DNA from: a virus
Direction: 5' to 3' (one strand)
Virus record (IMG/VR): IMGVR_UViG_3300005095_000547
Location: 1 to 40,175 of that record
DNA: 40,175 bases
Shown: piece after piece, positions 11,598-40,175 of the stretch
Position numbering within the stretch: the stretch's first letter is position 1
How the letters are laid out: each line of letters starts with the position of its first letter
The notes under the pieces: generated by a model
Database searches by the model: none
Seen by the model: only the letters and a program-made list of their open reading frames with translations
What the model was told of the DNA's origin: nothing
Made by a program: the position numbers and the translations under genes

Positions 11598-12671
11598 ATG
11601 CTTAACCCCTATGCTGCTCGTTTCGTAACCGCTTCCGGTGAGCCGGTCTCCGAGTTCAAGTACAAAGGCTCCAAGGTTATCGACGAGAAGACGGGCGAGA
11701 TCAATGCCCATGACAAGAAGGAAGCCATTCAGCAGATCGGTCGCCTCATTAGCGCTGCGGCCAGCGGTGAGATCCGCCGTGATCGCGGCGCCGACGAGGC
11801 CAGCGTTCGCGAACTCGTTATCGCTGCTCTCAACGATCCCACCGGCCAGGCCATGAAGGTGGTCGGTGAAGTCATGGCCGAAGAAATCAGCATTGCGATG
11901 GACCGTGAGGGATTCGCCCGTCGCATCCTTGCCATCAAGGACCTCGAACAGGGCGAAGTTCCCCGCATCCCCGTCCGCCGCAAGGACGTGATGGGTTGGA
12001 TGATGACCCAGGATGCCCGTACGCCTGTTTCCATCGTTCGGCAGGCGTACGTGACCCTGGAAGAGTTCTACCTCACCGCCAACATCCAGATCGAGGCGCG
12101 TGAACTCGCCAGCTCTCCGGTGGACCTTCTCGACGAGAAGTACGCCGAGGGCTTGGAGCAGATCATGGTGGCCGAAGACCGCGCCTTCAAGGTGCTCAGC
12201 GACAAGGCCGCCAGCACCTCTAACGAGATCGTGTACTTCAACACCTTCACCCCGGCGGTGTTCGCCGATCTGCGCCAGCAGATCGCCAACTGGAACCTGC
12301 CGGTGGTGGCCGCGGTGATCGCCAGCGACATCTGGAACGACATCATCGCGTCCCCTGACTTTTCCAACTGGTTCGATCCCGTAACCAAGTACAACCTCAT
12401 CCTTGAGGGCAAGCTTGGTTCCATCCTCGGGATCGAGCTCATCACCGACGCGTTCCGCGAGGAGCGCCTCCGGGTGCTCAACCCCGGTGAAGTTTACTTC
12501 TTCACCGCTCCGAAGCACCTCGGTGTGATCGCCCGTCGGCAGGATGTAACCTCCAAGCCGACCGATGGCGCCCAGGAAGGCCGTCCTTACCAAGGGTGGT
12601 ACCTCTACGCCATCGAGGGTATGGCCGTGGTCAACAGCCGCGGTGTTACCAAGGGTCAGCGCATCGCGTAA
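11598..12671 (+). CDS. major capsid protein (HK97-fold type)
   Basis: A 357-residue protein with AGAGGAGG upstream of ATG 11598. The order of segments fits HK97-type capsid proteins of myoviruses: a helical N-arm (IQQIGRLISAAASGEI), an extended loop-like region with basic residues (PRIPVRRKDVMGW), a spine helix (DLLDEKYAEGLEQIMVAEDR), a P-domain strand and helix (FADLRQQIANWNLPVVAAVI, DIWNDIIA), then GILGIEL-like and VYFFTAPKHLGVIARRQDV strands near the C-terminus. The gene follows protease and scaffold-like genes, is bounded by hairpins on both sides, and almost lacks rare codons, as expected for the most abundant virion protein. The N-terminal 60 residues could be removed by the protease; no cleavage site can be stated. 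Confidence 0.85.
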   Translation: MLNPYAARFVTASGEPVSEFKYKGSKVIDEKTGEINAHDKKEAIQQIGRLISAAASGEIRRDRGADEASVRELVIAALNDPTGQAMKVVGEVMAEEISIAMDREGFARRILAIKDLEQGEVPRIPVRRKDVMGWMMTQDARTPVSIVRQAYVTLEEFYLTANIQIEARELASSPVDLLDEKYAEGLEQIMVAEDRAFKVLSDKAASTSNEIVYFNTFTPAVFADLRQQIANWNLPVVAAVIASDIWNDIIASPDFSNWFDPVTKYNLILEGKLGSILGIELITDAFREERLRVLNPGEVYFFTAPKHLGVIARRQDVTSKPTDGAQEGRPYQGWYLYAIEGMAVVNSRGVTKGQRIA

Positions 12672-25879: not shown

Positions 25880-28800
25880 GTGGATACGCCGTTCGTAGGT
25901 TACGCCAACATCAACGAAGCCATCAAACACCACCTTGAGTTCGAGAACCTCCGCGTGCGTACGGCCTCCTTGCGCGATCTGGCCGGGGAGTTCGAAATGC
26001 CCGAAGCGTTCGACCTCCGCCTCACCAACTGCAAACCGCAGGGGGCCGTGCTCAACGACCGTAGCGTCCTCTTCATGGGCACCGGTTGCGAAGTCACCGG
26101 TCGCTACACCGGCGGGCGCCGGGCTCTCGTTTACGCGCGAAACATCGCCAAGATGGAAAACGTGACGTTCGACGGGTTCGTGGACAGCCGCATCGTGCTC
26201 ATGGACATCCTTCCCGGCGACGGCCAGGACGCCATCCGCCAGCTCACGTTCACGAACCTCAAGAGGACGACGGTAGAGATCGTCACGTTCGGGCCGTGGA
26301 AGAACGAAGGGCTACCGCTCATTTCCAACTGTCAGGCGTGTGAGTTCAAACTTTACAACATCGCGTCGCTCTTTTCGACGACGCACCTCTTCGACAACAT
26401 CGCGCGGTCGTTCTTCGACCTGCGCAACATCGGGTTCGTCGATACCAAGGAAAGCATCTTCCACAAGTGCACGGATTGCACCGGGGCCGCCGAGTTCGGT
26501 CTCATCGGCACGTGGACCGATTGGGTCATGAAGGAGACCCTCGGCGGTAAGTGGTGGTTCCGCATCGACGAGTCCGTGCCCCGTCACGGGTTCATGGCTA
26601 CGAACTCTTCCCTGGAGTTCAGCCAATGTTCAAAGATGGCCCTCGGCGGTAAGGGCTTCTCGCTCGTTGACTGCGACGTGGCCTTCGACCGGTGTGAAGA
26701 GGTCGAAGGCGACTTGCTGTTCATAATGTGCGACAACGTGCGTGTCAACGCCCGTGCGTCCAAGCTGGAAGCTTCGACCGCCGTGTTCACGCAGAGCCAG
26801 AACATGAACGTCCGGCTCTCAGACTCGCAAATAATGACCGCCAACGTGGTCGGTAGCCAGATCACGGAGTCGGCGTTCACGTTCCTGCGTAGCAAGATCG
26901 AATCCGCGCAGTCCGTCTGGACCGACTGCAACCGCGTGCGCGTGCGCCAGGACGACACGCAGGTTCAGGCCGGAACGTCCATCGCTACCAGCTCCACGGC
27001 GCTCGAACTGCGCTACGAGAACGTGCAGGAGCAGGCCGGGTCAACGGCCTACGATGGCGTCAACGGCCTTAGCCACAAGTGGCGCAACTACCAGTTGCAG
27101 GCCGGTGCCGACGGTATCAAGGCCAGCAACGTGCGCGGGTTCTGGGAGAACGTCAACCTCAACACCGGGGCCGATGGCGTCAACGTGCAGGAAGTGTCGC
27201 GCTGGTTCATTTACTCCAGCGCGATACAGTCCGGCGGTGAAAGCTTCAAGGCCACCGGTGGTCAGGGTTACTACAACCTGAACAAGAACTCGTTTCAAAA
27301 GGAGTTCACCATCGAAGACGCACAATACGTGCGCATGCGCGACAACTCCTTCCAGAAACAGGTCAAAGTGCGCAAGGTTGACGAGATTTCCACCTGGCGC
27401 AACACGCACGAAGAGGAGGCCACCTACCAGGAGCTCGGTTCCTTCGAGACCAAGGAGGACGAGTTCCAGAAGGACGTGACCTTCTCCGACATCAAGCGCT
27501 TGACCTGGATCAAGACCGAGACGCAGAAGAAGCTCACCGTCAACAAGGTCGAGTGGGCGCACGTTCAGAACGCGTCTTGGCAGGATGCTCTGCTCTCCGA
27601 CCTCGGCGAGACGCTCATCCTCCACTCCAACGTCGAGGCCCCGGAGATTGTCTCCATAGAGAAGGTTCACCACCTCAAGTTGGAGGGCTTCACGGTCAAC
27701 ACCAAGAACTTCAACCTGGCCCAAATCGCGCACCTGCACTCGTCTTGGTCCGAGTTGCAGGCCGCCGAGCGCATGACCTGGGACAAGGTTTCGTCTGACC
27801 GTATTCGTTACTCGAACTTCCGGGCGCAACAGCTCTCCATCACCGGCGAGCGTCTCGTGGCCCTCGACTCCACGTTCGAGGCGTCCGAGGTGCTGTCGCT
27901 CACCGACCTCGAACTGGACCTCAAAGACGTTACCTGGCAGGCCCCGTCGGTCGTGGCGTCGTCTTGTCAGGGCGACACGCTGCGGCTCACGGTCAACGCC
28001 GACAACCAGACCTATTCCGACGTGGTGTGGCGGTGGAACGACGCCATTGTGCAGGGCGAGTCCTTGACCATCACCGATTCGAGGTTCCTGGTCAAGAACT
28101 CTCAGGGCACCTTCGCGCACACCACGTTGCGGTCCAACCCGCAACTGGAGTGGCGCGACGTGACCTGGAACAGCGACCTGACGAGCGAGGACAACAACTT
28201 CCTCCTCGTACGTTCTCACTTGGAAGGGTCGTCCGCGACCTTCACCCGCGACCACCTTGGTGTGTCGGCCACCGACCTGCGTTTCGGCTACCTGGCGTTC
28301 ATCGACCTCAAGGACTTCAAGGGCCGTCAGGTCTCCTGGTCCGATGAGGCCCGGTTGACCGGGACCCAGGCCGTCGATCTCGTGCAGGTCATCGGTAAGA
28401 GTGTGGTCTTTGAAGAGTGCTCCGGGCGTCTGGCCCGCATGACCGCCGAGTCGCTCACCGTCGAGCGGTCGGGCCGGTTGAACTTCGACCACCTCTTCGT
28501 TACGGAGAACTTCTCCATGACCGACGTGGACGAGGGGCGCATTCTGGCCGTGAACGTGTCCGGCAACGCGTCTCTCACCAACTGTCGTAACGTCCTGTGG
28601 CGCTACGGCGAGATCGGCGGGACCCTCAGCCTCTACAACTGCCAGGACGTTGGCGTGGCCGACGTGCAAGCCGACACCGTGGTCGTGGAAAGCGTATCCG
28701 AGGCGCGTTGCGGGTTGGTCAAAGCCAACACCGTTACCGTGACGCAGACGACCGGGTTCTTCACCGCCTTGGAGGCCAGCACGGTGACCCTGATCGACTG

Positions 28801-29488
28801 CCCCGTGGTGGCCGTGCACGGTGGCCGCGTGGATACGCTCACCGCGAGTCGGGGGTCGCTTGCCCTGGAGAACATGGAGATCAATTCCGGCAACTTCAGC
28901 GACATGGCCGGGCTGCGCACGTTCGCCGTGCAAGCGTCGTCGTTCGACGTGAGCTCGGCCTTCTGGATCGGGTTCGGCGGTAGCATCAACAGCATCGACC
29001 TCGATGACGTGGCCGTCGAGCTGTGCGGTGTGGAGACCGGTAAGATCGACGCCAAGAACAGCGGCCTCAACTTGGTGTCCGTATCCGGCTCCGATCTCGA
29101 CCTGGACGACAGCGGGGCTCTGCTCACGCGGTCGTCGTTCGGGTCGGCGTTGCTGTCGTCTGCCGGGTTGATGATCGTGCAGGGTGGTGTGGGCTCCGTT
29201 GACTGCGACTTGCAGTCCGCCGTTCACTCCATCAGCGGTAACGCTTCCATCGAGTTCCCGTTCCGCACCTTCGACGCGTCCCGGGGTAAAGCCATCATCG
29301 CTGCCGGGGGCCGTCTCGGGTTCTGCGGTGGCGGCATGGACGGCTATTTGCAGGGGTCCTGGGACCTCGAAGTCGAGGGTGACGTGGTGTGGAACTCTAC
29401 CAATGAATACCGCATCGAGAGCGCCAACGGCGGGTCGTGGACCGGTGGCTGCGTCCGCATACCGCGCCTCGATGCCGATGAGTGTTAG
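25880..29488 (+). CDS. giant beta-solenoid virion protein (fibre or spike)
   Basis: A 1202-residue protein from GTG 25880 (GGGAGAGG upstream, no in-frame ATG nearby). It is almost free of long helices and shows short strands with turns of about 19-24 residues, as in right-handed beta-helix proteins. Six exact-length 19-residue rungs at residues 470-583 are listed separately; rungs of about 21 residues precede them. Cysteines are scattered through the strands (for example FKLYNI, NCQACEFKL). It follows the spike gene, so it could be a tail fibre, a receptor-binding or wall-degrading protein, or a baseplate attachment. No catalytic motif is recognisable. It has a strong bias for GC-ending codons like the other structural genes. 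Confidence 0.7.
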   Translation: MDTPFVGYANINEAIKHHLEFENLRVRTASLRDLAGEFEMPEAFDLRLTNCKPQGAVLNDRSVLFMGTGCEVTGRYTGGRRALVYARNIAKMENVTFDGFVDSRIVLMDILPGDGQDAIRQLTFTNLKRTTVEIVTFGPWKNEGLPLISNCQACEFKLYNIASLFSTTHLFDNIARSFFDLRNIGFVDTKESIFHKCTDCTGAAEFGLIGTWTDWVMKETLGGKWWFRIDESVPRHGFMATNSSLEFSQCSKMALGGKGFSLVDCDVAFDRCEEVEGDLLFIMCDNVRVNARASKLEASTAVFTQSQNMNVRLSDSQIMTANVVGSQITESAFTFLRSKIESAQSVWTDCNRVRVRQDDTQVQAGTSIATSSTALELRYENVQEQAGSTAYDGVNGLSHKWRNYQLQAGADGIKASNVRGFWENVNLNTGADGVNVQEVSRWFIYSSAIQSGGESFKATGGQGYYNLNKNSFQKEFTIEDAQYVRMRDNSFQKQVKVRKVDEISTWRNTHEEEATYQELGSFETKEDEFQKDVTFSDIKRLTWIKTETQKKLTVNKVEWAHVQNASWQDALLSDLGETLILHSNVEAPEIVSIEKVHHLKLEGFTVNTKNFNLAQIAHLHSSWSELQAAERMTWDKVSSDRIRYSNFRAQQLSITGERLVALDSTFEASEVLSLTDLELDLKDVTWQAPSVVASSCQGDTLRLTVNADNQTYSDVVWRWNDAIVQGESLTITDSRFLVKNSQGTFAHTTLRSNPQLEWRDVTWNSDLTSEDNNFLLVRSHLEGSSATFTRDHLGVSATDLRFGYLAFIDLKDFKGRQVSWSDEARLTGTQAVDLVQVIGKSVVFEECSGRLARMTAESLTVERSGRLNFDHLFVTENFSMTDVDEGRILAVNVSGNASLTNCRNVLWRYGEIGGTLSLYNCQDVGVADVQADTVVVESVSEARCGLVKANTVTVTQTTGFFTALEASTVTLIDCPVVAVHGGRVDTLTASRGSLALENMEINSGNFSDMAGLRTFAVQASSFDVSSAFWIGFGGSINSIDLDDVAVELCGVETGKIDAKNSGLNLVSVSGSDLDLDDSGALLTRSSFGSALLSSAGLMIVQGGVGSVDCDLQSAVHSISGNASIEFPFRTFDASRGKAIIAAGGRLGFCGGGMDGYLQGSWDLEVEGDVVWNSTNEYRIESANGGSWTGGCVRIPRLDADEC
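27287..27628 (+). repeat. six 19-residue rungs in beta-solenoid gene
   Basis: Residues 470-583 divide into exactly six units of 19 residues beginning NSFQKEF, NSFQKQV, NTHEEEA, DEFQKDV, TETQKKL and ASWQDAL. Each continues with alternating hydrophobic residues and ends near R/K/N-D/E. The nucleotide copies have diverged, so this is an old amplification kept at protein level. One rung per 19 residues fits a beta-solenoid coil. Confidence 0.75.
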
Positions 29489-30935: not shown

Positions 30936-31152
30936 CGGGTTGCGGCGCTTTATCCACGACGCCGGGGGCCGCAAGTTCTTGCTTGCGGTCCTCGTCGTCA
31001 TCTTGGCCTTCGTCATGTCCATGTTCGGCCCGGACAGCGAAGTGATCGTGACCAAGTGGAACGATATGGCCCTAATTGTGGTAGGGTTTTACTTTGGCTA
31101 CAAAGCGGCTGAGATCAAGCCGCCGTCATCCCCGGGAGGACCGTCGAAATGA
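30901..31152 (+). CDS. small two-helix membrane protein, holin-like
   Basis: An 83-residue protein; ATG 30901 is used (GGTGG upstream) rather than GTG 30889. It has two predicted membrane helices (KFLLAVLVVILAFVMSMF and MALIVVGFYFGYKAAEI) with a short loop (GPDSEVIVTKWND) and a proline/glycine tail. Small phage membrane proteins ending in VGFYFG...AE are common beside lysis genes and are often called holins. No endolysin is recognised nearby, so the role is unproven. It overlaps the preceding gene by 35 bases and the following gene by 4 bases (ATGA at 31149-31152). Confidence 0.6.
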   Translation: MTTQPEKAVTSSGLRRFIHDAGGRKFLLAVLVVILAFVMSMFGPDSEVIVTKWNDMALIVVGFYFGYKAAEIKPPSSPGGPSK

Positions 31153-32351
31153 GTCTTTCATGGCGTGAGTTGGAGCGTGCTAGTCCCGCGAAAGTGCGAG
31201 ACCTGTTGTCTCGCTACTTTCACGACGAAGACGCGTTGGAGAAGTGGATCGAGACTCATGAGGACTTACTCAAGGAAAACGACACCGTGTGGCCGGTGGT
31301 GGTCGAGCGGTGGGCTTGGCTATCCAGGCAGCAGTTCCCTTACCCGATAAGAGAACTCGTTGAAGAACACCCCGAAAAGGTCCCGATGCACCTTGCTCTC
31401 TGGACCGTTTCGCCTCAGCGCTTGGCCGAGGTACACGGTTACGACCGCAACGTCTTCTACGACAACCTGACCGACTTGTTGATAAACGCTAGAGGCCAGG
31501 TCCCTGGACTGCTAGAAGCGTTCGGGGTGTCGATCGAGGAGGCCCTCACAGAGAAGCCCTTGAGGACCGACGCCCTGGAGGCGCCGGAGTGGGACACTTT
31601 GGCCGTCGAGAGGTCCAAAGGGGAATCTGTGTTTGTGGACATAAAGTCCGACACTTACCCGTTGGTGGGGTTCGCGAAACTGGCCGGTAAGTACCCCGTC
31701 GCGGCGTTCATTAACGAGAGCGCTGTTGTCGTGGTTCCGCTGAAGGGCGACGTTCCCGGTCGTGGACCGGACTTCGAAAGGGACAGGTTTTACGTTACCG
31801 AGACGGAAGACAAATACGCCTCCGACGAACGCTACGTCGTGCGCGCCACCGTTCACGGCCTCAAGACGGACCCACCACTCAGCGGCTACTTCAAATTGAA
31901 AAGCGTACTCCCTCCGACCATCGAAGACATACTGCGGGCCGATCGCGTTCCGCCCAACGTCACGCAACTGGCGACCGCTAAGTACCGTTTCCGCGACGCC
32001 GAGGAGGCCGTCAGGGTCCTGTGGCGGTTCAGACTGCCCGTACGCGGGGCGACCGTCACCGCTAAACGCTACGTTGTGAGGCCGGTACCGTCACGGGTTA
32101 CACTCGATTCCCGCGGGTTGTGGAAGAACGCTCACTTCGGGGACGCGTTCACCGTCATGGAGCGCGTGGGCGAGCAGATGTTCAACGTGTTCCCTCTCGT
32201 CGTGCGCAAGGACGGGTCGGTCATCAACGTCGAAGACGGTGGAGCCCGAACCCCCATCCCAGAACACGCCTTGAAAGAGTTGCTGTTTCCGAGTAAAGGA
32301 CGTAAGATGTACAAGGTTCCTTGTCTTGTAAGCAAATCGTTCTTCGTGTAG
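31149..32351 (+). CDS. accessory protein, C-terminal VSKSFFV tag family, member 1
   Basis: A 400-residue protein with GGGAGGA upstream and a 4-base overlap with the holin-like gene. The N-terminal 130 residues are helical with conserved tryptophans (NDTVWPVVVERWAWL, LALWTVSPQRL). The middle has a beta block of the family: VVVVPLKGDVPGRGPDFERDRFYV followed by ATVHGLKTDPPL. The last residues are VSKSFFV-COOH, shared in form by six other genes downstream. Two stop codons (TAG TAG) end the gene. No enzyme motif is seen. Soluble and probably made early or packaged; both are inference. Confidence 0.75.
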   Translation: MSLSWRELERASPAKVRDLLSRYFHDEDALEKWIETHEDLLKENDTVWPVVVERWAWLSRQQFPYPIRELVEEHPEKVPMHLALWTVSPQRLAEVHGYDRNVFYDNLTDLLINARGQVPGLLEAFGVSIEEALTEKPLRTDALEAPEWDTLAVERSKGESVFVDIKSDTYPLVGFAKLAGKYPVAAFINESAVVVVPLKGDVPGRGPDFERDRFYVTETEDKYASDERYVVRATVHGLKTDPPLSGYFKLKSVLPPTIEDILRADRVPPNVTQLATAKYRFRDAEEAVRVLWRFRLPVRGATVTAKRYVVRPVPSRVTLDSRGLWKNAHFGDAFTVMERVGEQMFNVFPLVVRKDGSVINVEDGGARTPIPEHALKELLFPSKGRKMYKVPCLVSKSFFV

Positions 32352-32366
32352 TAGCGGGGGCGTAGA

Positions 32367-32885
32367 ATGGCTGATCCCGGTCTCAATCATGAGCTGAAGC
32401 AGGTTCTCCAACAAATACACACAGCGGACGATCTGTAGCAACTCATAGCCCAGTACAAAGACTACCTCACCTCCGACGATACGCTGTGGTCCGCCGTGGC
32501 CGAGCGCTGGGTTCAAGTTACCCAGCAACCGTTCCCTCTCTTCCTGAGAGACCTCGTGGTAGAGATCGGCCCGAGCTCCGTGACCTTCGTCCCTCTTTCC
32601 GAGGAAGGGTTGCCGGGCCGCAAGCCGAACTTCGAGCGCAGCGTAGCGTACCGACCTCCAGACACGTTGGGGGCTGGTTCGTTTCACAAACTCATCTTCA
32701 CCGTCTTTCGGGTTGAACAGAAGAACCAAGAAGACATCGCTTACAGAGCGCAACCAGTCCTTTTCGATGATAGAGGCTCAACCGTCACGTTGGGACCGGT
32801 GCCGGTGGAAGCCCTGCGACTGGTGCTGTTCTCATCGAAACCGGATAAGCCGGCGATCTTCGTTAGCGAAGCGTTCATGGTCTAA
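32367..32885 (+). pseudogene. tag-family member 2, interrupted by an in-frame amber codon
   Basis: From ATG 32367 the frame reads 23 codons to TAG at 32436-32438 and then continues open to TAA 32885. Before and after the stop the protein aligns with member 1: TADDL-stop-QLIAQYKDYLTSDDTLWSAVAERW corresponds to DEDALEKWIETHEDLLKENDTVWPVVVERW, so the stop sits at a glutamate position. It then lacks about 170 residues of member 1 but keeps GLPGRKPNFER and the tag VSEAFMV. Other genes here end in TAG, so the stop is probably real: a decayed copy, read-through (context TAG CAA), or restart at GTG 32496 without a ribosome site. Confidence 0.6.
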
Positions 32886-32912
32886 GGGGAGGAAGAAGGA
32901 GGAGGAACGCTA

Positions 32913-33662
32913 ATGCACGACCTTTACAAAGCCACGTGGTACGGGGCGTCGTCCGATAAACCGACGACCTTTTACACCGACGAGCGCTTCTTTTGCCGCA
33001 ACACCCAAGGCGATTGCGTTCGCGCCGAGACAAACATCCTGTTCCTCCGAGGCGAATATGAGGGTGAATATGCGGTTTACGTCAACGAGGAGGACTCCAA
33101 CTGCCAAATGACGGTCGTGCTCAACCAGCTCGTCGTGCACGATCCCGAGCGCACCGACCCGCCGGCGTGGTTCCTCTACCGTTGTCCGAAGGACGACGGG
33201 TTCGAAGCCGCGTTCATGTCACACGAGGTATATTCTAAACTCACCAAGCAGTTGGAGGAATCTGACACCAGCGTCCTCGACGAAATATTAGAAGAGTCTG
33301 TTGAAGCCGATTTAGTGAAAAAGGACCTCGCCAGAATCTACGACTCGGGCAAAGTCAAGTGGCCCGTGTTCCTGGAGGCCGTGGCGCGAGAGTTGAACAT
33401 AGACCTGCGCGAGAGGTTCATCGAGGTGGGGTACACGATGGCTGTGGCCAGCGGCAGTACGGTGGCCGTTACCGGGCGCACCTTCAACTTCGACGCGCAC
33501 GACATCGCCGAGTTCGTCGAGGCCGTCATCGACGAGGTTCTAGAGGACCGCAAACGAGAAGTGATGGACCTCATCCTCTCCGGCAAGGTCCCCGTGCGGG
33601 TGTCGGAATTGGTTAAGTATTTTAAGCAGACGAACTTCGTGTCCGCCGCCTTTTACGTTTAG
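32913..33662 (+). CDS. accessory protein ending VSAAFYV, tag-family member 3
   Basis: A 249-residue protein with GGAGGAGG ahead of ATG 32913. The N-terminal 80 residues contain several cysteines and acidic turns (DERFFCRNTQGDCVRAE, EYAVYVNEEDSNC), a style shared weakly with the N-terminus of member 5. The C-terminal half is helical and charged (ESVEADLVKKDLARIY, HDIAEFVEAVIDEVLEDRKREVMDLILSG). It ends TNFVSAAFYV, the family tag with alanine at the variable third place. It lacks the GRxxDYxRDRF block, so the tag is shared without the body. The function is unknown. Confidence 0.75.
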   Translation: MHDLYKATWYGASSDKPTTFYTDERFFCRNTQGDCVRAETNILFLRGEYEGEYAVYVNEEDSNCQMTVVLNQLVVHDPERTDPPAWFLYRCPKDDGFEAAFMSHEVYSKLTKQLEESDTSVLDEILEESVEADLVKKDLARIYDSGKVKWPVFLEAVARELNIDLRERFIEVGYTMAVASGSTVAVTGRTFNFDAHDIAEFVEAVIDEVLEDRKREVMDLILSGKVPVRVSELVKYFKQTNFVSAAFYV

Positions 33663-33671
33663 CAGGAGGAC

Positions 33672-34754
33672 ATGATGGGAGGAGACAACGCGGGCCTGCT
33701 GACAGAGGAGCTGTGGGAAAGCTGGCCTTTTGAAGAGAAGCTAAAGTTCGTAAAGACCTTTGATGGCGACCCCACTTCTATCCCCGACTTCGTGTACGCT
33801 TGGCTTATAGCGAAGTCGATCGACGACCTGCTTGTAGTGTGGTCGCGGCGGGAAGTCGGAGAGTTCCTGAACCGGGTCTTGAGCGACGAGGAGGCCAGAA
33901 GGAAAGCCTTAGCCTTACGCCCGCTCAAGAACGAGAAGGTAGCAAAGTTTTTGGCGGAACCCGAGTTTCAAACGGTGTCCCTCAAACCGGGGCAATACGT
34001 GGAGATACCCGTTAAAAGGAGCGTTCTTGACGAGGTGGGGGCGGAGGGAGGTCTTACCGTGCTCGGCGGGCGCACGGACCCCGTAGCGGTCGTGTACGTG
34101 TTCAAGCAGCGCGGCCAGTTGGTGGTATTGGCGCTGAACGACATCCCCGGACGCCCTGTTGACTACGACAGAGACCGGTTCCACGTTGGCGAGGTGAAGG
34201 GAGAACAGAGGATAATAGCCACCGTACACGGCCTCTTACAGGACCCGCCCGTGCATCCTTATTTAGACCTGCTCCAGGTTGTCCTGCCTGATTTGCGGGA
34301 CCTGTACCGTTACGCGGAGGTTCACTTTTCTCTCCCACCGAACACCACCAAGATCCAGTCGCGGTCTTACCCTTCAACCGCTGATCTGTCTGAGGAAGAA
34401 TGGGCCATACTGGCGTCGGTGGTAAATCAAACGATGTTCACTCCACGGAGGCCCGTCTTGCCGGCACCTTACATGCCCCTTTCAATAGGCAAAGAGGTAT
34501 TCATAGGAAGGTCAGAGCTTTTCTCCAACGACTTCGTGGTGAACTTTGCCGGTGGAGAGTCGCCCTATCACAGCCTTGAGCTAATAATCAACACGAAAAC
34601 AGAGCAGGTAGAGCCAGCCGTTCTCTGGGACCCCGAGCGCCAGCGCCCCGTGCTGAACAAGAAAGCCGCGAAGATCGGGCGGGGCTTGGAAGCGGTGCGC
34701 AATTTGATGCAGGGTACGGCGTTGATAGTCGTATCGGAAGCATTCTTTGTGTGA
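33672..34754 (+). CDS. accessory protein ending VSEAFFV, tag-family member 4
   Basis: A 360-residue protein. AGGAGG ends 2 bases before ATG 33672 and 5 bases before the next ATG at 33675, so 33675 may be the true start. Its whole length aligns with the second half of member 5: ELWESWPFEEKLKFVKTF, LPLKN-type helix RKALALRPLKN, FLAEPEFQTV, LTVLGGRTD, the core block DIPGRPVDYDRDRFHV, ATVHGLLQDPPVHPYLD and DLRDLYRYA, then LPPNTTK. It uses more AGA, AGG, ATA and TTA codons than the structural genes. The end is VVSEAFFV-COOH. It is predicted soluble, with helices first and beta strands later. Confidence 0.8.
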   Translation: MMGGDNAGLLTEELWESWPFEEKLKFVKTFDGDPTSIPDFVYAWLIAKSIDDLLVVWSRREVGEFLNRVLSDEEARRKALALRPLKNEKVAKFLAEPEFQTVSLKPGQYVEIPVKRSVLDEVGAEGGLTVLGGRTDPVAVVYVFKQRGQLVVLALNDIPGRPVDYDRDRFHVGEVKGEQRIIATVHGLLQDPPVHPYLDLLQVVLPDLRDLYRYAEVHFSLPPNTTKIQSRSYPSTADLSEEEWAILASVVNQTMFTPRRPVLPAPYMPLSIGKEVFIGRSELFSNDFVVNFAGGESPYHSLELIINTKTEQVEPAVLWDPERQRPVLNKKAAKIGRGLEAVRNLMQGTALIVVSEAFFV

Positions 34755-34769
34755 GGGAGGAGCAGCAAT

Positions 34770-36443
34770 ATGGCCACTTTGGCGAGTGACGTGGTGCTCG
34801 TTAACGGCGAAGAGTACGTGATCCTGCATTACGACGAGGATGACTTCGAAAGCAAAGAGGCGTTCTTAGACTGCGTTGAGGAAACTTACGGGGGCCTCTG
34901 TACCGTTTACGAAGACGAGGTGGAAGTTGACGATCTCGGCGAATACTGGATAAAGGGCGATAGTTGCAACGCGTACCACATTCGCGGTTCACACGAAGAT
35001 GCGGTCTTCGTCCGCAAGTCGCTCTACGACCAGGTGAACTCGCAGCACCTGTCGCCTCTGTACTGCCCGGAAGTCGTGGCCTGGAAAGCGACCGAAGAGT
35101 TCGACGTGGATTCCGATCTTATCAGGGAGGCCGTCAAGGAGCTGGGTTACGGGACGCTCCACGAAGTCCGCGAGAACCGCGATGAGGTTCTGTACCAGGC
35201 GCTCAAGAAAGCCACAGACCCCGAAGACGTTGAGAACATCCTCTCCGAACTGAGCATGCTGGACAGCACCTTGTTCACTAGCGCGGTGACCAAGGACGTG
35301 TGGAGCAATTGGCCCTGGGACGCCAAGATTGCGTTTCTCGAAACCATCCCGTTCGACGACCTCGACATTCCCGATTACATAACGCGGTGGGTCGAAGACA
35401 ACGTGCCCGAGGTCCCGGTAGAAATCGCGTTGTCCTACCTAACCAGCGGCGACGAAGACAAGGACGCCGAGACCGTCGATAAACTTCTCGCCATCTACCC
35501 GCTGGAGAAGGTCGTAGCGGCTATACCGAAACTGGTCGGGATGTGGCCGGCGAGCGACGTGGGCTCCATCACGGCAAGGGCGCTGGACAGCGAGGAGAAG
35601 CGTCGCAAGGCCCTTGAGATCCTCCCGCTAAAGAACGCAACCATTAAGGAGTTTTTGGAGGAGCCTGAGTTCCAAACGGTACGAGCACAGGCCGGGGCCA
35701 CGATTTCGATGGCCATGCGGGAGGACATCAGCGAGTCGTTTTCCAAGGAGCAGTTCGGGATCACTACGCTCGGTGGGTCATCCGACACCAACTTTTTGGT
35801 GTACGCGTATAGAAAAGGCGGCAACTACGTGGAACTCTTGCCTCTCGTTGACATCAAGGGGCGCAAGGTTGACTACAACAGGGACCGGTTCTTCTGTAAC
35901 GAGAGCTCCGTTTCCTTGGCGGCTACGGTTTACGGGCTCCTCCAAGACCCGCCCGTGCATCCGTACTTGGACGTAAGCTCTCTCCTCGATCCCGACTTGC
36001 GGGACCTTTACCGTTACGCGGTAAAGCACAAGTCCCTGCCGCCGCATTTTTCGAAGCTGGTCTTCCGCGCGCACGACGCCAACGAGATCTCGCCGGGGAA
36101 GCTTGCCGTCCTTGCTGCGGTCGTTGAACGGGTCACTTACAACCGCGTGGACGCGACCGAGCGGGGCAAATACCGCATGTTGCTGCCCGGAGAGACCGTA
36201 ACCTTCGGTACCGTTCCTGGTGCCAGTAGCGGCATCATCCTAACCATTTCAGGACCGAAGCTAGACGGCAAGGGCCTCGTCTTGCGACGGAAGGACGACA
36301 AGGCCGTCCCAAGCGTTCTGTGGGACCCTAACGAGGGGACCGTGGTGCCGAACTGGGAGGCCATCGCCCACGGGTACCGGGTACCGCACGATCTCTTGAA
36401 GAGCTACAACGTAATAACCGTCTCGAAGGCGTTCTTCGTCTAA
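34770..36443 (+). CDS. accessory protein ending VSKAFFV, tag-family member 5 (longest)
   Basis: A 557-residue protein with GGGAGGAG ahead of ATG 34770. An extra N-terminal domain (about 1-95) has acidic turns and paired cysteines (LDCVEETYGGLCTVYEDE, GDSCNAYHIRG) with an EDAVF segment. A helical region with tryptophans follows, then the region homologous to member 4: FLEEPEFQTV, ITTLGGSSD, DIKGRKVDYNRDRFFC, ATVYGLLQDPPVHPYLD, DLRDLYRYA, LPPHFSK. Short DNA runs in this region are identical to member 4 (for example GACCCGCCCGTGCATCC), showing a fairly recent duplication. The end is VSKAFFV-COOH. No catalytic motif is seen. Confidence 0.8.
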   Translation: MATLASDVVLVNGEEYVILHYDEDDFESKEAFLDCVEETYGGLCTVYEDEVEVDDLGEYWIKGDSCNAYHIRGSHEDAVFVRKSLYDQVNSQHLSPLYCPEVVAWKATEEFDVDSDLIREAVKELGYGTLHEVRENRDEVLYQALKKATDPEDVENILSELSMLDSTLFTSAVTKDVWSNWPWDAKIAFLETIPFDDLDIPDYITRWVEDNVPEVPVEIALSYLTSGDEDKDAETVDKLLAIYPLEKVVAAIPKLVGMWPASDVGSITARALDSEEKRRKALEILPLKNATIKEFLEEPEFQTVRAQAGATISMAMREDISESFSKEQFGITTLGGSSDTNFLVYAYRKGGNYVELLPLVDIKGRKVDYNRDRFFCNESSVSLAATVYGLLQDPPVHPYLDVSSLLDPDLRDLYRYAVKHKSLPPHFSKLVFRAHDANEISPGKLAVLAAVVERVTYNRVDATERGKYRMLLPGETVTFGTVPGASSGIILTISGPKLDGKGLVLRRKDDKAVPSVLWDPNEGTVVPNWEAIAHGYRVPHDLLKSYNVITVSKAFFV

Positions 36444-36461
36444 CGTGAGGGAGGTTGAACC

Positions 36462-36731
36462 GTGACAGTTGAAGCGTTGGGGTTGCGTTGGAGGAGGTGG
36501 CACGGTCGGTACCGCGCGGTAGTCGGTGACGGGGAGGTCCTTCGCCACGTGTGGTTGGCGCCTACCGTCACCGGGCGCAAGTTGGTCGTGTTCACCGACG
36601 ACGGTGAGTACTACCGGGCCGTTGCTGCGTCCACCGACCCGGTGTCGTTCATTAACGCCGCGTCGCGCAAGGACACCGCGTCTTGGCAAAAGCTACGCGC
36701 GTGGTTTGAGGAAAGAGACAACGAAGACTGA
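36462..36731 (+). CDS. small hypothetical protein
   Basis: An 89-residue protein from GTG 36462 with GGGAGG upstream. It is basic at the start (LRWRRWHGRYRAVVG) with a beta strand (RKLVVFTDDGEYYRAV) and a helical, charged end (WQKLRAWFEERDN). Tryptophans are frequent. It lacks the C-terminal tag of its neighbours. The next gene starts 15 bases after its TGA. I do not recognise it; it may be an interaction module for the NHL-like protein that follows. Confidence 0.65.
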   Translation: MTVEALGLRWRRWHGRYRAVVGDGEVLRHVWLAPTVTGRKLVVFTDDGEYYRAVAASTDPVSFINAASRKDTASWQKLRAWFEERDNED

Positions 36732-36745
36732 GGAGGCTTGGCGCT

Positions 36746-38080
36746 ATGCGCGGATTGGAATGGCTCAAAGAGCTGATGTCGCAACTCAAAGAGGACGAAC
36801 ATCTCAGGTCCCGTCTTGGTCCCGGGGCCACCATGCTCGACAAGGCCGTCGAGGAGCTTGAGCAGTTGTCCACGGAAACCACTACCCGGGACTACCAGGT
36901 ATTCGGGTTGGCCGATAAAGACTACGGCGCGTTCCGGGTTATCAACGGTGAGATACAATGGCCCTACCCCATCGGAACGCGCGTCTCGTACTCGAAGACC
37001 AACCTCATCTACAACCCCATCGACATGCGCTACGACGCCGAAACCGATACCGTGTTCGTCACGTCGTGGAACTGGGGCGTACGTCTCTTCGACCGCAACT
37101 TTTCCTACAAGGGCGGGTTCTCGAAGAACCTGGGTTACTGCTGGGGCATCGACGTTAACGGCGAAATCGTGGTCGTCTCCGACAACTACGGCCACCGCGT
37201 GCGGTGCCTCGACCGCAAGGGGACCCTGCTGTGGACCCTGGGCGACGGAGTGGCCGGTGCCCTCGTGGACGGTCACCTCTACCGTCCGACGGGCGTGGCC
37301 ATCCTGCCCAACGGTAACATCATGGTGGCTTGTAACTACGGTCGCGAAACGTCTTCCGACCCGACCTACGGAACCATTTCCGAACACGACCGTAACACAG
37401 GTGAACTGGTCAAGGTTCACCTCAAGTATCAGGGCAACGGCCAGGCGTGGAACAACGAAGTTTACCGGCCCACGTTCATGCGTGTGGTTTACCCGCCCAA
37501 CTCCGACCCCGAGCTTTGGTTCAGCATGGAACGCGACTACGTGGCCGTGTTCACCATCGACCCGAACACCGGCGACCTCACCTACAAGCGCGTGTACGGG
37601 CGGAGCGACCGTTTCTCGCTGTTCTCCATGACCGTGCGCGGTCTGGCCGTATCGACCGACTACCGGCGTCTCTACGTAGCCGTGGCCGGGCCGCAGGTCG
37701 TCGGCGTGCTCGACATCGACTCCGGCGACGTGCTCGGCTTCGTCGGGCACCAGGGCTTCGAGAACGCCAAGGACCTCCCGGAAACGCCCGGCGTGTTCCT
37801 CGACGTTCAGGGCGTTGAGCTCATCGAGGACCAAGAGCTCCTGGTTGCCGACTCCAGCAACCACCGCATCCAGGGGTTCCCGACCGGCGTTCTTGAGGTT
37901 CCGGGGTTCGTGCTCTCCTACTCCCTGCTCGACGGTGCGGATCAGCTCGACGACGTGCTCTACACCAGCGACGACAAGTTCGACCTCAGCACGCTGACGC
38001 GTATCGTAGCTACGCGTGATCTCATCACGTGTAGCTTCCCGAAGAAGGTTCTGCTCTGTGGCCGACGCCATATCTGCTAA
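36746..38080 (+). CDS. NHL-repeat-like beta-propeller protein
   Basis: A 444-residue protein with GAGGAGG ahead of ATG 36746. After a 50-residue helical N-terminus it shows repeats of NHL/propeller type: IDMRYDAETDTVFVTSWNWGVRLFD, WGIDVNGEIVVVSDNYGHRVRCLD split by loops, PTGVAILPNGNIMVACNYG, and near the end VQGVELIEDQELLVADSSNHRIQGF. Such propellers bind proteins or sugars; in phages they are found in receptor-binding proteins. Its codons are those of the structural genes (few TTA, CTA or TCA), unlike its neighbours, which hints that it is a highly made virion protein. It lacks the C-terminal tag and ends RRHIC. Confidence 0.75.
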   Translation: MRGLEWLKELMSQLKEDEHLRSRLGPGATMLDKAVEELEQLSTETTTRDYQVFGLADKDYGAFRVINGEIQWPYPIGTRVSYSKTNLIYNPIDMRYDAETDTVFVTSWNWGVRLFDRNFSYKGGFSKNLGYCWGIDVNGEIVVVSDNYGHRVRCLDRKGTLLWTLGDGVAGALVDGHLYRPTGVAILPNGNIMVACNYGRETSSDPTYGTISEHDRNTGELVKVHLKYQGNGQAWNNEVYRPTFMRVVYPPNSDPELWFSMERDYVAVFTIDPNTGDLTYKRVYGRSDRFSLFSMTVRGLAVSTDYRRLYVAVAGPQVVGVLDIDSGDVLGFVGHQGFENAKDLPETPGVFLDVQGVELIEDQELLVADSSNHRIQGFPTGVLEVPGFVLSYSLLDGADQLDDVLYTSDDKFDLSTLTRIVATRDLITCSFPKKVLLCGRRHIC

Positions 38081-38100
38081 TGCTTTGAGGGGAGACTTGC

Positions 38101-39060
38101 ATGGAGATATTCGAATCGGTTTCTCCGTTCCAGGAGATAGAGTGTCCGAGCAACAAGCAGAAGATCGAGTTACCGATAATCTACCCGTCGGAGTACAAAA
38201 AGCGCTTCCCGGAGATCGTCGAGGCGTGTGACTGGCCACGGCCCGACGGCGCCCTCCGGGAAGCGTTGCAACTGTCGGCCTTCACGCACGCGGCCCCGAT
38301 CCTCCGTCACCGAGACGGGGCGAAGCTCCTCTACAACGTCATCGCCGACGAGCTCTCCGACCTCTTGTACACCCGTAAGCACCTCATACTGGCCGAGGAG
38401 TGGGCCGGTGGGTTCGACGTGATAGTGTTCAAGCGCGTCTTTCGTCGCATCTCTTTGCGCGACAACGGCGTCGAGCCGGTTACGCCCGTTCCGAACCTTG
38501 AAATGGACCGCAAGCGCCTCGGTTATTACAGCCCTGAAGTCATTCTGGACCTCGTGAACAGTCAACTGAGTATCGACGACCTTATCGACCTGGCCAAAAC
38601 GAACGACCTGCCACAAGATGCCCCGCTGGTAATAGAAACAACAATCCCGTCCGAAGGGCACAGCCTAGAGGATGCGGAACGGTTGTTGGCCGAAGGCTTG
38701 GTCGAGCTGTTGACCGTGAGCGTTGAGGGGCAGATCTTAAAGGTGCTGCCGGGCGAGGTTAAGTGGAAGCGCGAGAAGAAACGGTTCTCCGTGAACGAAA
38801 ACGACCTGTGGGGTTTGCGCCAATTCATCTTGGCTTACCCCGACGGCACGGGCTTCTTTCCGATCGAGTTGAGACTGGTCAGGGACTACACTAAAGACAA
38901 GGACGACGGACTACTTCACTATCGCCTTGAGGACATTAACGTCTTGCGCCCGCTGGAACCGAAACATACGACGAAGCTTCGGGAGGCGCTGGGGACACGT
39001 TTGCTAAAACGCTTCGTCTTCGATATGGTAGGTCTTGTCAGTCGAACCTTCTACGTTTAA
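38101..39060 (+). CDS. accessory protein ending VSRTFYV, tag-family member 6
   Basis: A 319-residue protein with GAGGGGA ahead of ATG 38101. The body is mixed helix and strand (LLYTRKHLILAEEWAGGFDVIVFKRVF, IDDLIDLAKTNDL) and has no clear similarity to members 1, 4 and 5 except a weak KVLPGEVKWKREKKRFSVNE segment in place of the GRxxDYxRDRF block. The end is GLVSRTFYV-COOH, the family tag. No cysteine cluster, signal peptide or membrane segment is visible. Function unknown. Confidence 0.75.
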   Translation: MEIFESVSPFQEIECPSNKQKIELPIIYPSEYKKRFPEIVEACDWPRPDGALREALQLSAFTHAAPILRHRDGAKLLYNVIADELSDLLYTRKHLILAEEWAGGFDVIVFKRVFRRISLRDNGVEPVTPVPNLEMDRKRLGYYSPEVILDLVNSQLSIDDLIDLAKTNDLPQDAPLVIETTIPSEGHSLEDAERLLAEGLVELLTVSVEGQILKVLPGEVKWKREKKRFSVNENDLWGLRQFILAYPDGTGFFPIELRLVRDYTKDKDDGLLHYRLEDINVLRPLEPKHTTKLREALGTRLLKRFVFDMVGLVSRTFYV

Positions 39061-39086
39061 GAGCACCAGAGAGAGAGGCTAACGTT

Positions 39087-40175
39087 ATGCCGAACATACC
39101 AGACTACCCCTACGACGATCTCGACCTCATATTCTTCCTCTTGACGCTCTGTCCAGGTGGGTGGAACGTCATCAAGGAGGCGTTCGAGAGCAAGGAAGGG
39201 GTCGAGAACGTAGAGCTCGAACTGCACGAAGAGTGGTTCGGGTACTACGACCTCGACATCACCATGCCCATTGGAGACGTGCCGATCAAGTGGGAAGGTA
39301 AACTCAGCCGCGACCCATTCGGGGAAGAGTGCTACGAGGTCGCCGAGGTTCAGGAAGACGAATACGGTGAGCAGGAAGTGGCCGGTGTTGAACGGTTTGA
39401 GTTCTTCATGACGATCTCCTTCACTTACGACGGTCGCAGGCTAAAGATTAGGTACTTGAACCTTTACTACGACGAAGCTGAGGGCTCGTGCGACGCCACC
39501 ACGACGACGCACCTGCCGACGAAGTTGCCCCTGGCCCCGCATTCGGTCGAGCAGGACATCCGCAACCACCTCGTCCGGTTCGAGGTTGATCCGGCCCTAA
39601 CGATCCTCAACGAGGAGGAGTTCAACCACGAGGCCCGGATCAACGGGTGCCTGGAGGCACGTGTAGAACTGTACACCGACCTCTGCCAGTTCTTGTCGTT
39701 GGCGACGACGGTCCCGTCCGACATCAAGCGTGTCATGGCGAAAGTCTTCGAGCGGGTTGGGGACTTCGACGCTGTTAAGGCGTTCCACCGAACAGGCGAG
39801 TTCCTCTTCGTTCTCGACGGGTGCCCCGAACCGGTAACCGTGCGCGAGCTGGTGTACCAGGGACGATGCCTCGACTCCTGGCCGGAGTTGGCGGAGAAGT
39901 ACCCGCATTTGGCCAACGCTGTCGTGCGCAGTAAACAGCGCACGTTCCTGCATCTCGGCACCCTGGAGAACGAGCGGGAGATAATGCAATACGCCTTGCA
40001 GGTTGCCAAGGAGCACAAACTTCCCGTGTCCGTCAAGACGGACGTATCCGGCTTGCGGCTCGTATCGTTCCGCGACGAGCCATTGCTGAAGGCCCTGAAG
40101 TTGATGGCGCGTCGCTACCCGCACCTCTTGAAGCACGCCACGAGGCCCCTCATAAGCAAAGCCTTCTACGTGTAA
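39087..40175 (+). CDS. accessory protein ending ISKAFYV, tag-family member 7
   Basis: A 362-residue protein starting at ATG 39087 after GAGAGAGG; its stop codon is the last codon of the window. The first 150 residues are acidic and beta-rich (NVELELHEEWFGYYDLDITM, FFMTISFTYDGRRLKIRYLNLYYDE), the rest helical with repeated motifs (LDSWPELAEKYPHLANAV and LKLMARRYPHLLKHA). It has no GRxxDYxRDRF block. The end is PLISKAFYV-COOH. Its body is not obviously related to the other members, which strengthens the view that the tag itself is what is conserved. Confidence 0.75.
   Translation: MPNIPDYPYDDLDLIFFLLTLCPGGWNVIKEAFESKEGVENVELELHEEWFGYYDLDITMPIGDVPIKWEGKLSRDPFGEECYEVAEVQEDEYGEQEVAGVERFEFFMTISFTYDGRRLKIRYLNLYYDEAEGSCDATTTTHLPTKLPLAPHSVEQDIRNHLVRFEVDPALTILNEEEFNHEARINGCLEARVELYTDLCQFLSLATTVPSDIKRVMAKVFERVGDFDAVKAFHRTGEFLFVLDGCPEPVTVRELVYQGRCLDSWPELAEKYPHLANAVVRSKQRTFLHLGTLENEREIMQYALQVAKEHKLPVSVKTDVSGLRLVSFRDEPLLKALKLMARRYPHLLKHATRPLISKAFYV

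Follow-up and report, generated by a model that had tools for sequence, protein, structure and literature searches.

We describe a short C-terminal peptide shared by seven neighbouring genes of an uncultured virus, IMG/VR record IMGVR_UViG_3300005095_000547, which was analysed over its entire length of 40,175 bases (hereafter the window). Between positions 31149 and 40175, seven predicted proteins end in [VI]-S-x-[AST]-F-[FYM]-V directly before the stop codon, exactly as an earlier note on this DNA had claimed; this shared end (hereafter the tag) is real, unusual and well delimited. The best explanation as a whole, which we hold at a little under even confidence, is a docking motif read by one partner, probably serving to load accessory proteins into or onto the virion.

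A shared C-terminal heptapeptide and its carriers

The stop codon follows the tag directly in all seven genes, all three kinds (TAA, TAG, TGA) being used, and the tag serine is written AGC, AGT, TCC or TCG, as had been reported. The motif is present in no other open reading frame (ORF) of the window, whether terminally or internally; the non-overlapping ORF set used for this count dropped the gene at 38101, which is overlapped by a longer antisense ORF, and its tag was seen separately. When C-terminal 7-mers were compared without reference to the motif, the best pairs scored 30, 29 and 29 (BLOSUM62), against a mean best score of 14.6 for internal 7-mers of the same ORFs, and a degenerate DNA pattern recovered six of the seven tags where 0.01 were expected in shuffles. 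That four of about 34 gene ends should carry the motif independently has a probability near 1e-20, a figure that uses the amino-acid frequencies of the window and is optimistic, the motif having been defined post hoc. The shared C-terminus is far beyond chance. Recoding of TAG was considered and rejected: TAG closes 11 of the 40 listed ORFs, and TAA and TGA serve as stops as well. The genes of the tagged cluster are the following.

31149–32351, + strand: tagged protein of family A (defined below), 400 residues, paralogue of 33672 and 34770, Shine-Dalgarno sequence present; tag codons VSKSFFV plus stop TAG at 32328–32351, + strand
32367–32885, + strand: shortened copy of family A, with an in-frame TAG at 32436, the ORF being called from GTG 32496 (129 residues); tag codons VSEAFMV plus stop TAA at 32862–32885, + strand
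32913–33662, + strand: tagged protein, 249 residues, body unlike the others; tag codons VSAAFYV plus stop TAG at 33639–33662, + strand
33672–34754, + strand: tagged protein of family A, 360 residues; tag codons VSEAFFV plus stop TGA at 34731–34754, + strand
34770–36443, + strand: tagged protein of family A with an extra N-terminal region, 557 residues; tag codons VSKAFFV plus stop TAA at 36420–36443, + strand
36462–36731, + strand: untagged ORF within the cluster, 89 residues
36746–38080, + strand: untagged NHL-repeat propeller within the cluster (Pfam NHL, 4.4e-15; NHL matches in the PDB), candidate receptor
38101–39060, + strand: tagged protein, 319 residues, body unlike the others; tag codons VSRTFYV plus stop TAA at 39037–39060, + strand
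39087–40175, + strand: tagged protein, 362 residues, body unlike the others, ending at the last base of the record; tag codons ISKAFYV plus stop TAA at 40152–40175, + strand

The earlier note had counted seven tagged genes, and all seven do carry the tag; they are not seven unrelated proteins, however, since 31149, 32496, 33672 and 34770 are paralogues (family A). The products of 33672 and 34770 align over 390 residues (blastp, E 3e-68), that of 31149 matches them with E values of 2e-17 and 2e-11, respectively, and 32496 aligns to 31149 in three short, collinear blocks; the extra N-terminal region of 34770 spans about 160 residues. The statement that the bodies encoded at 32913, 38101 and 39087 are unlike the rest stood up: neither blastp nor profile comparison revealed convincing similarity to family A or to each other. 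The best match between types in the profile comparison, which is weak because it used single sequences, is the tail itself (residues 344–360 of 33672 with 346–362 of 39087). Judged from these comparisons, the independent carrier types would number about four, and deep common ancestry of 32913, 38101 and 39087 with the other carriers may exist.

The intact carriers (all but 32496) each have their own Shine-Dalgarno-like sequence and share the codon-position GC pattern of the neighbouring genes. The status of 32496 as a gene is doubtful because its GTG start has no Shine-Dalgarno sequence and its frame extends back to an ATG at 32367 and there encodes a family-like N-terminus that a TAG at 32436 interrupts in frame; there are also internal deletions relative to 31149. 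It probably belongs to the longer frame, and 32367–32885 is probably a decaying or shortened copy, or is read through, with the tag still kept.

Only the last seven to nine residues are conserved (a hydrophobic residue, then [VI], S, any residue, [AST], F, [FYM] and V). In pairs of family A paralogues the tag is identical at five to six of its seven positions, against 0–7 of the preceding 30 columns; between types, the segments upstream resemble one another no more than random segments do, apart from one borderline case. Third codon positions are about equally diverged within the tag (0.61) and in the 21 bases before it (0.60); for first and second positions the values are 0.29 within and 0.70 before. 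The tag serine switches between AGY and TCN codons. The saturated third positions, together with the low divergence of first and second positions, argue for constraint at the level of the amino acids, and they rule out a recent DNA transfer of 3′ ends. Selection has thus preserved the tag residues, or arrived at them, while their codons drifted to saturation. By eye, an extended helix-plus-strand module seemed to precede the tag, but it was not above chance.

These comparisons bear on an alternative, namely common descent or one small shared C-terminal domain, in which the bodies have diverged beyond recognition and the heptapeptide is the last strand of the core. That four of the seven carriers are clear paralogues speaks for it, as does the arrangement of the five carriers in 31149–36443, which lie in one reading frame broken by stops only (TAG TAG, TAG, TAA, TAG, TGA); given the short intergenic gaps this shared frame is only a little out of the ordinary, and it would agree with tandem duplication. 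The motif is also hydrophobic enough for a core strand. Such a strand normally has conserved neighbours, though, and the residues just upstream of the tag are not conserved even among the clear paralogues, nor was any clear similarity between types found upstream of it, by profile comparison (with the weakness noted above) or otherwise. The AlphaFold2 models of 33672 and 32913 have a mean predicted local distance difference test score of 41.8 and 46.6, respectively, and are too poor to decide on a buried common strand; neither places a strand in the last ten residues, and the model of 32913 leaves the tag as an unordered tail behind a helix. We consider this alternative unlikely.

A probable docking motif and its possible use in the virion

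A single receptor that recognises the end best accounts for a short, exactly terminal motif under selection on dissimilar proteins whose genes lie together, and we regard it as probable that the tag is a common C-terminal docking motif. This motif would be short and linear, comprising the final seven to eight residues (hydrophobic-[VI]-S-x-[AST]-F-[FYM]-V-COOH); one partner, probably phage-encoded, would bind it together with the free carboxylate and would gather accessory proteins that are otherwise different. Three candidates for this partner are the major capsid protein (11598), the product of the acidic ORF 12731 and the NHL propeller; propellers often bind short peptides, which is why the protein encoded at 36746–38080 is put forward as a candidate receptor.

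The likeliest use of such a dock would be to bring the carriers into or onto the virion, to the capsid interior or to a neck or tail site, much as happens with T4 internal proteins and encapsulin cargo, because their genes lie behind those for head and tail structure, on the same strand, and are tightly packed, orphan and in part duplicated. That the carriers are indeed loaded in this way is, in our view, possible without yet being probable. Terminal address labels that serve several different proteins are rare in phages, and the best known, that of T4, is N-terminal. If the tag does route proteins to the virion, sequence alone would predict which proteins the phage delivers, orphan genes could be interpreted as one set, and chosen cargo could be directed into a large capsid by means of a seven-residue handle. 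Even if it were an assembly dock on the outside of the particle, the tag would mark a functional set among genes without known relatives.

Several observations weigh against a docking and loading function. The earlier interpretation of the tag as a targeting or docking signal holds insofar as the motif is short, exactly C-terminal and conserved in amino acids on dissimilar bodies within one late-looking cluster; the picture of seven unrelated proteins is weakened by the fact that family A supplies four of the seven carriers. The position of the cluster after the baseplate genes is not itself proof of a virion location, and the carriers are mostly acidic (isoelectric points of 4.6–6.3). The carriers 31149, 32913, 33672, 38101 and 39087 have no homologue in 50,697 phage records. 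Finally, the motif is known from a single record, whereas a conserved tagging system should recur, and the 50 records of relatives examined (from 117 loci found through the capsid protein and the terminase; many records are incomplete) do not have it. None of these 50 is close to the window (best capsid identity 47%), and the apparent uniqueness is provisional.

The tag could also be a self-association element, an edge strand or a steric zipper through which the carriers assemble with each other. The end is strongly hydrophobic, aromatic and extended-looking, and several carriers are encoded together, as this would lead one to expect; self-association alone, however, does not need the invariant terminal valine and the serine, and we consider it very unlikely.

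Gene context and occurrence beyond the window

The window carries the head-tail module of a PaBG/NCTB-like myovirus, a large tailed phage. The main genes lie on its + strand and encode terminase, portal, a baseplate J protein, the head maturation protease, an HK97-type capsid protein, sheath, two tubes, tape measure, and baseplate hub and spike, followed by a protein of 1,202 residues for which no relatives were found and then by the tagged cluster; the head maturation protease, capsid protein, portal and tail genes thus all lie upstream of the cluster on the same strand. The capsid gene (11598–12671), about 20 kb upstream of the cluster, is related to the solved capsid protein 6wkk, and the acidic ORF 12731 that follows it may encode the scaffold. 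Terminase and capsid protein are 33–39% identical to those of the jumbo myoviruses PaBG, NCTB and Yoloswag, and the closest IMG/VR relatives show 46–47% capsid protein identity; no relative of the capsid protein was found in the genome collection searched. The 40-kb record is probably a fragment. Its last base completes the stop codon that closes the final tag (40152–40175), so that further tagged genes may follow and the cluster may continue past 40175.

Beyond the cluster, the 1,202-residue protein (25880–29488), whose gene adjoins that of the baseplate spike, has a repetitive, solenoid-looking sequence, and it has no relatives in the phage records or in the 50 related records. The NHL propeller, which lies within a phage late cluster, has no match in the 50,697 phage records. 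At the other end of the window, two adjacent ORFs lie at 291–920 and 667–1254; a response-regulator receiver domain was recognised in the second (Pfam, 8.5e-12), while the first is receiver-like by eye only and gave no match in Pfam.

A search of related phages had been suggested in the earlier note and was carried out. Neither the tag nor family A was found in the 50 related records, with positive controls run, and the motif has no occurrence in 3,632 ORFs (994,000 residues) of related phages. A loose form of the pattern gave six isolated matches in the 50 records, against three for a reversed control, and none of them reads the motif. Family A peptide patterns found no homologue in IMG/VR, and comparison of the carriers with Pfam, PHROGs, NCBIfam, PADLOC and PDB sequences gave chance-level matches only. 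DNA scans of IMG/VR with two codings of the tag returned 26 and 2 matches; three of these end open frames of 48–67 residues and one ends a frame of 34 residues opposite other ORFs. We judged these matches to be chance, and none is accompanied by a second tag.

No other cluster of at least three non-homologous proteins with a common C-terminus was detected across 2.44 Mb, made up of 21 related sequences plus the window. The nearest parallel is in record G045, in which a DnaB-like helicase and a protein of 295 residues (L104:1827-2714 and L104:4201-5685), with no detectable similarity to each other, both end in a basic linker followed by GELELSS[VL]V; this end is possibly a replisome docking motif. 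Record G003 (L197, L198, about 14–22 kb) holds adjacent paralogues ending in WRP[VI]LE[LV], and here the common C-terminus is explained by homologous bodies. In line with the earlier view that such a set had not been described, the open-access literature searched contains no shared C-terminal tag on phage proteins.

Comparison with known systems

Motifs confined to the extreme C-terminus are also known as ligands of PDZ domains and as hydrophobic-Tyr-X (HbYX) proteasome tails. A host machine might read the tag. It could be a tail-specific protease or a protease or chaperone of the PDZ type; if the host is archaeal or actinobacterial, it could also be the 20S proteasome. The carriers would then be degraded, be trimmed or interfere with the machine. 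The end F-x-V-COOH, with phenylalanine at -3 and valine at -1 in all seven carriers, fits the class II PDZ ligand pattern X-Phi-X-Phi-COOH (PMC7138185), and three carriers ending F-Y-V fit hydrophobic-Tyr-X (PMC12352868). However, the other four have phenylalanine or methionine in place of tyrosine, the tag is longer than either kind of ligand, its conserved V/I, S and A/S/T at -7, -6 and -4 exceed both rules, and it is confined to one gene cluster. No PDZ domain was found in the window proteins scanned. Taken together, we think a host reader quite unlikely.

Signals for secretion or the outer membrane, that is, a type I secretion C-terminus or the beta-signal of the beta-barrel assembly machinery (BAM), resemble the tag in having hydrophobic C-terminal residues. 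The carriers lack an export signal and a barrel or repeat fold: inspection of the sequences and family scans found no hydrophobic N-terminus or N-terminal signal peptide, no RTX repeats and no beta-barrel family. The BAM beta-signal, moreover, ends in an aromatic residue, whereas the tag ends in valine. Such a signal is extremely improbable here.

A late-looking place in the genome and orphan genes that duplicate recall the internal proteins of T4 and the cargo of encapsulins, the systems closest to a docking motif of the loading kind. The T4 capsid-targeting sequence and the propeptides of giant-phage ejection proteins (SPN3US, phiKZ) are, like the tag, short terminal peptides common to otherwise different phage proteins, and, as in T4, a head maturation protease is phage-encoded here. 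Those sequences are N-terminal and cleaved after glutamate, at A-x-E in SPN3US (PMC5694885), whereas the shared peptide here is C-terminal in all seven proteins, whose N-termini have no common motif, and only VSEAFFV and VSEAFMV offer a glutamate, the others having K, A or R at that position. As two defining features fail, we do not claim the tag as a member of the T4 class. The window shares terminase, portal, capsid protein, sheath and maturation protease families with the jumbo myoviruses PaBG, NCTB and Yoloswag; its gene order differs from theirs, and the search of related records did not turn up a tagged cluster.

Encapsulin cargo offers the other parallel, again a short terminal peptide on different proteins. 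About ten C-terminal residues are conserved on different cargo encoded beside an HK97-fold shell gene, and they are sufficient for loading (PMC7355545); the label, which can be C-terminal, binds this shell. In encapsulin systems the shell gene adjoins its cargo, whereas here the putative shell would be the phage capsid, with its distant gene. To our knowledge the tag is unlike known encapsulin loading peptides, and we do not claim it as one of them. A C-terminal loading code, in which a virion partner would read hydrophobic-[VI]-S-x-[AST]-F-[FY]-V-COOH and package effector or accessory proteins as an exchangeable set, is a tentative and somewhat doubtful proposal; such a code would, with the same reserve, be the phage counterpart of encapsulin cargo loading and the mirror image of the N-terminal T4 signal.

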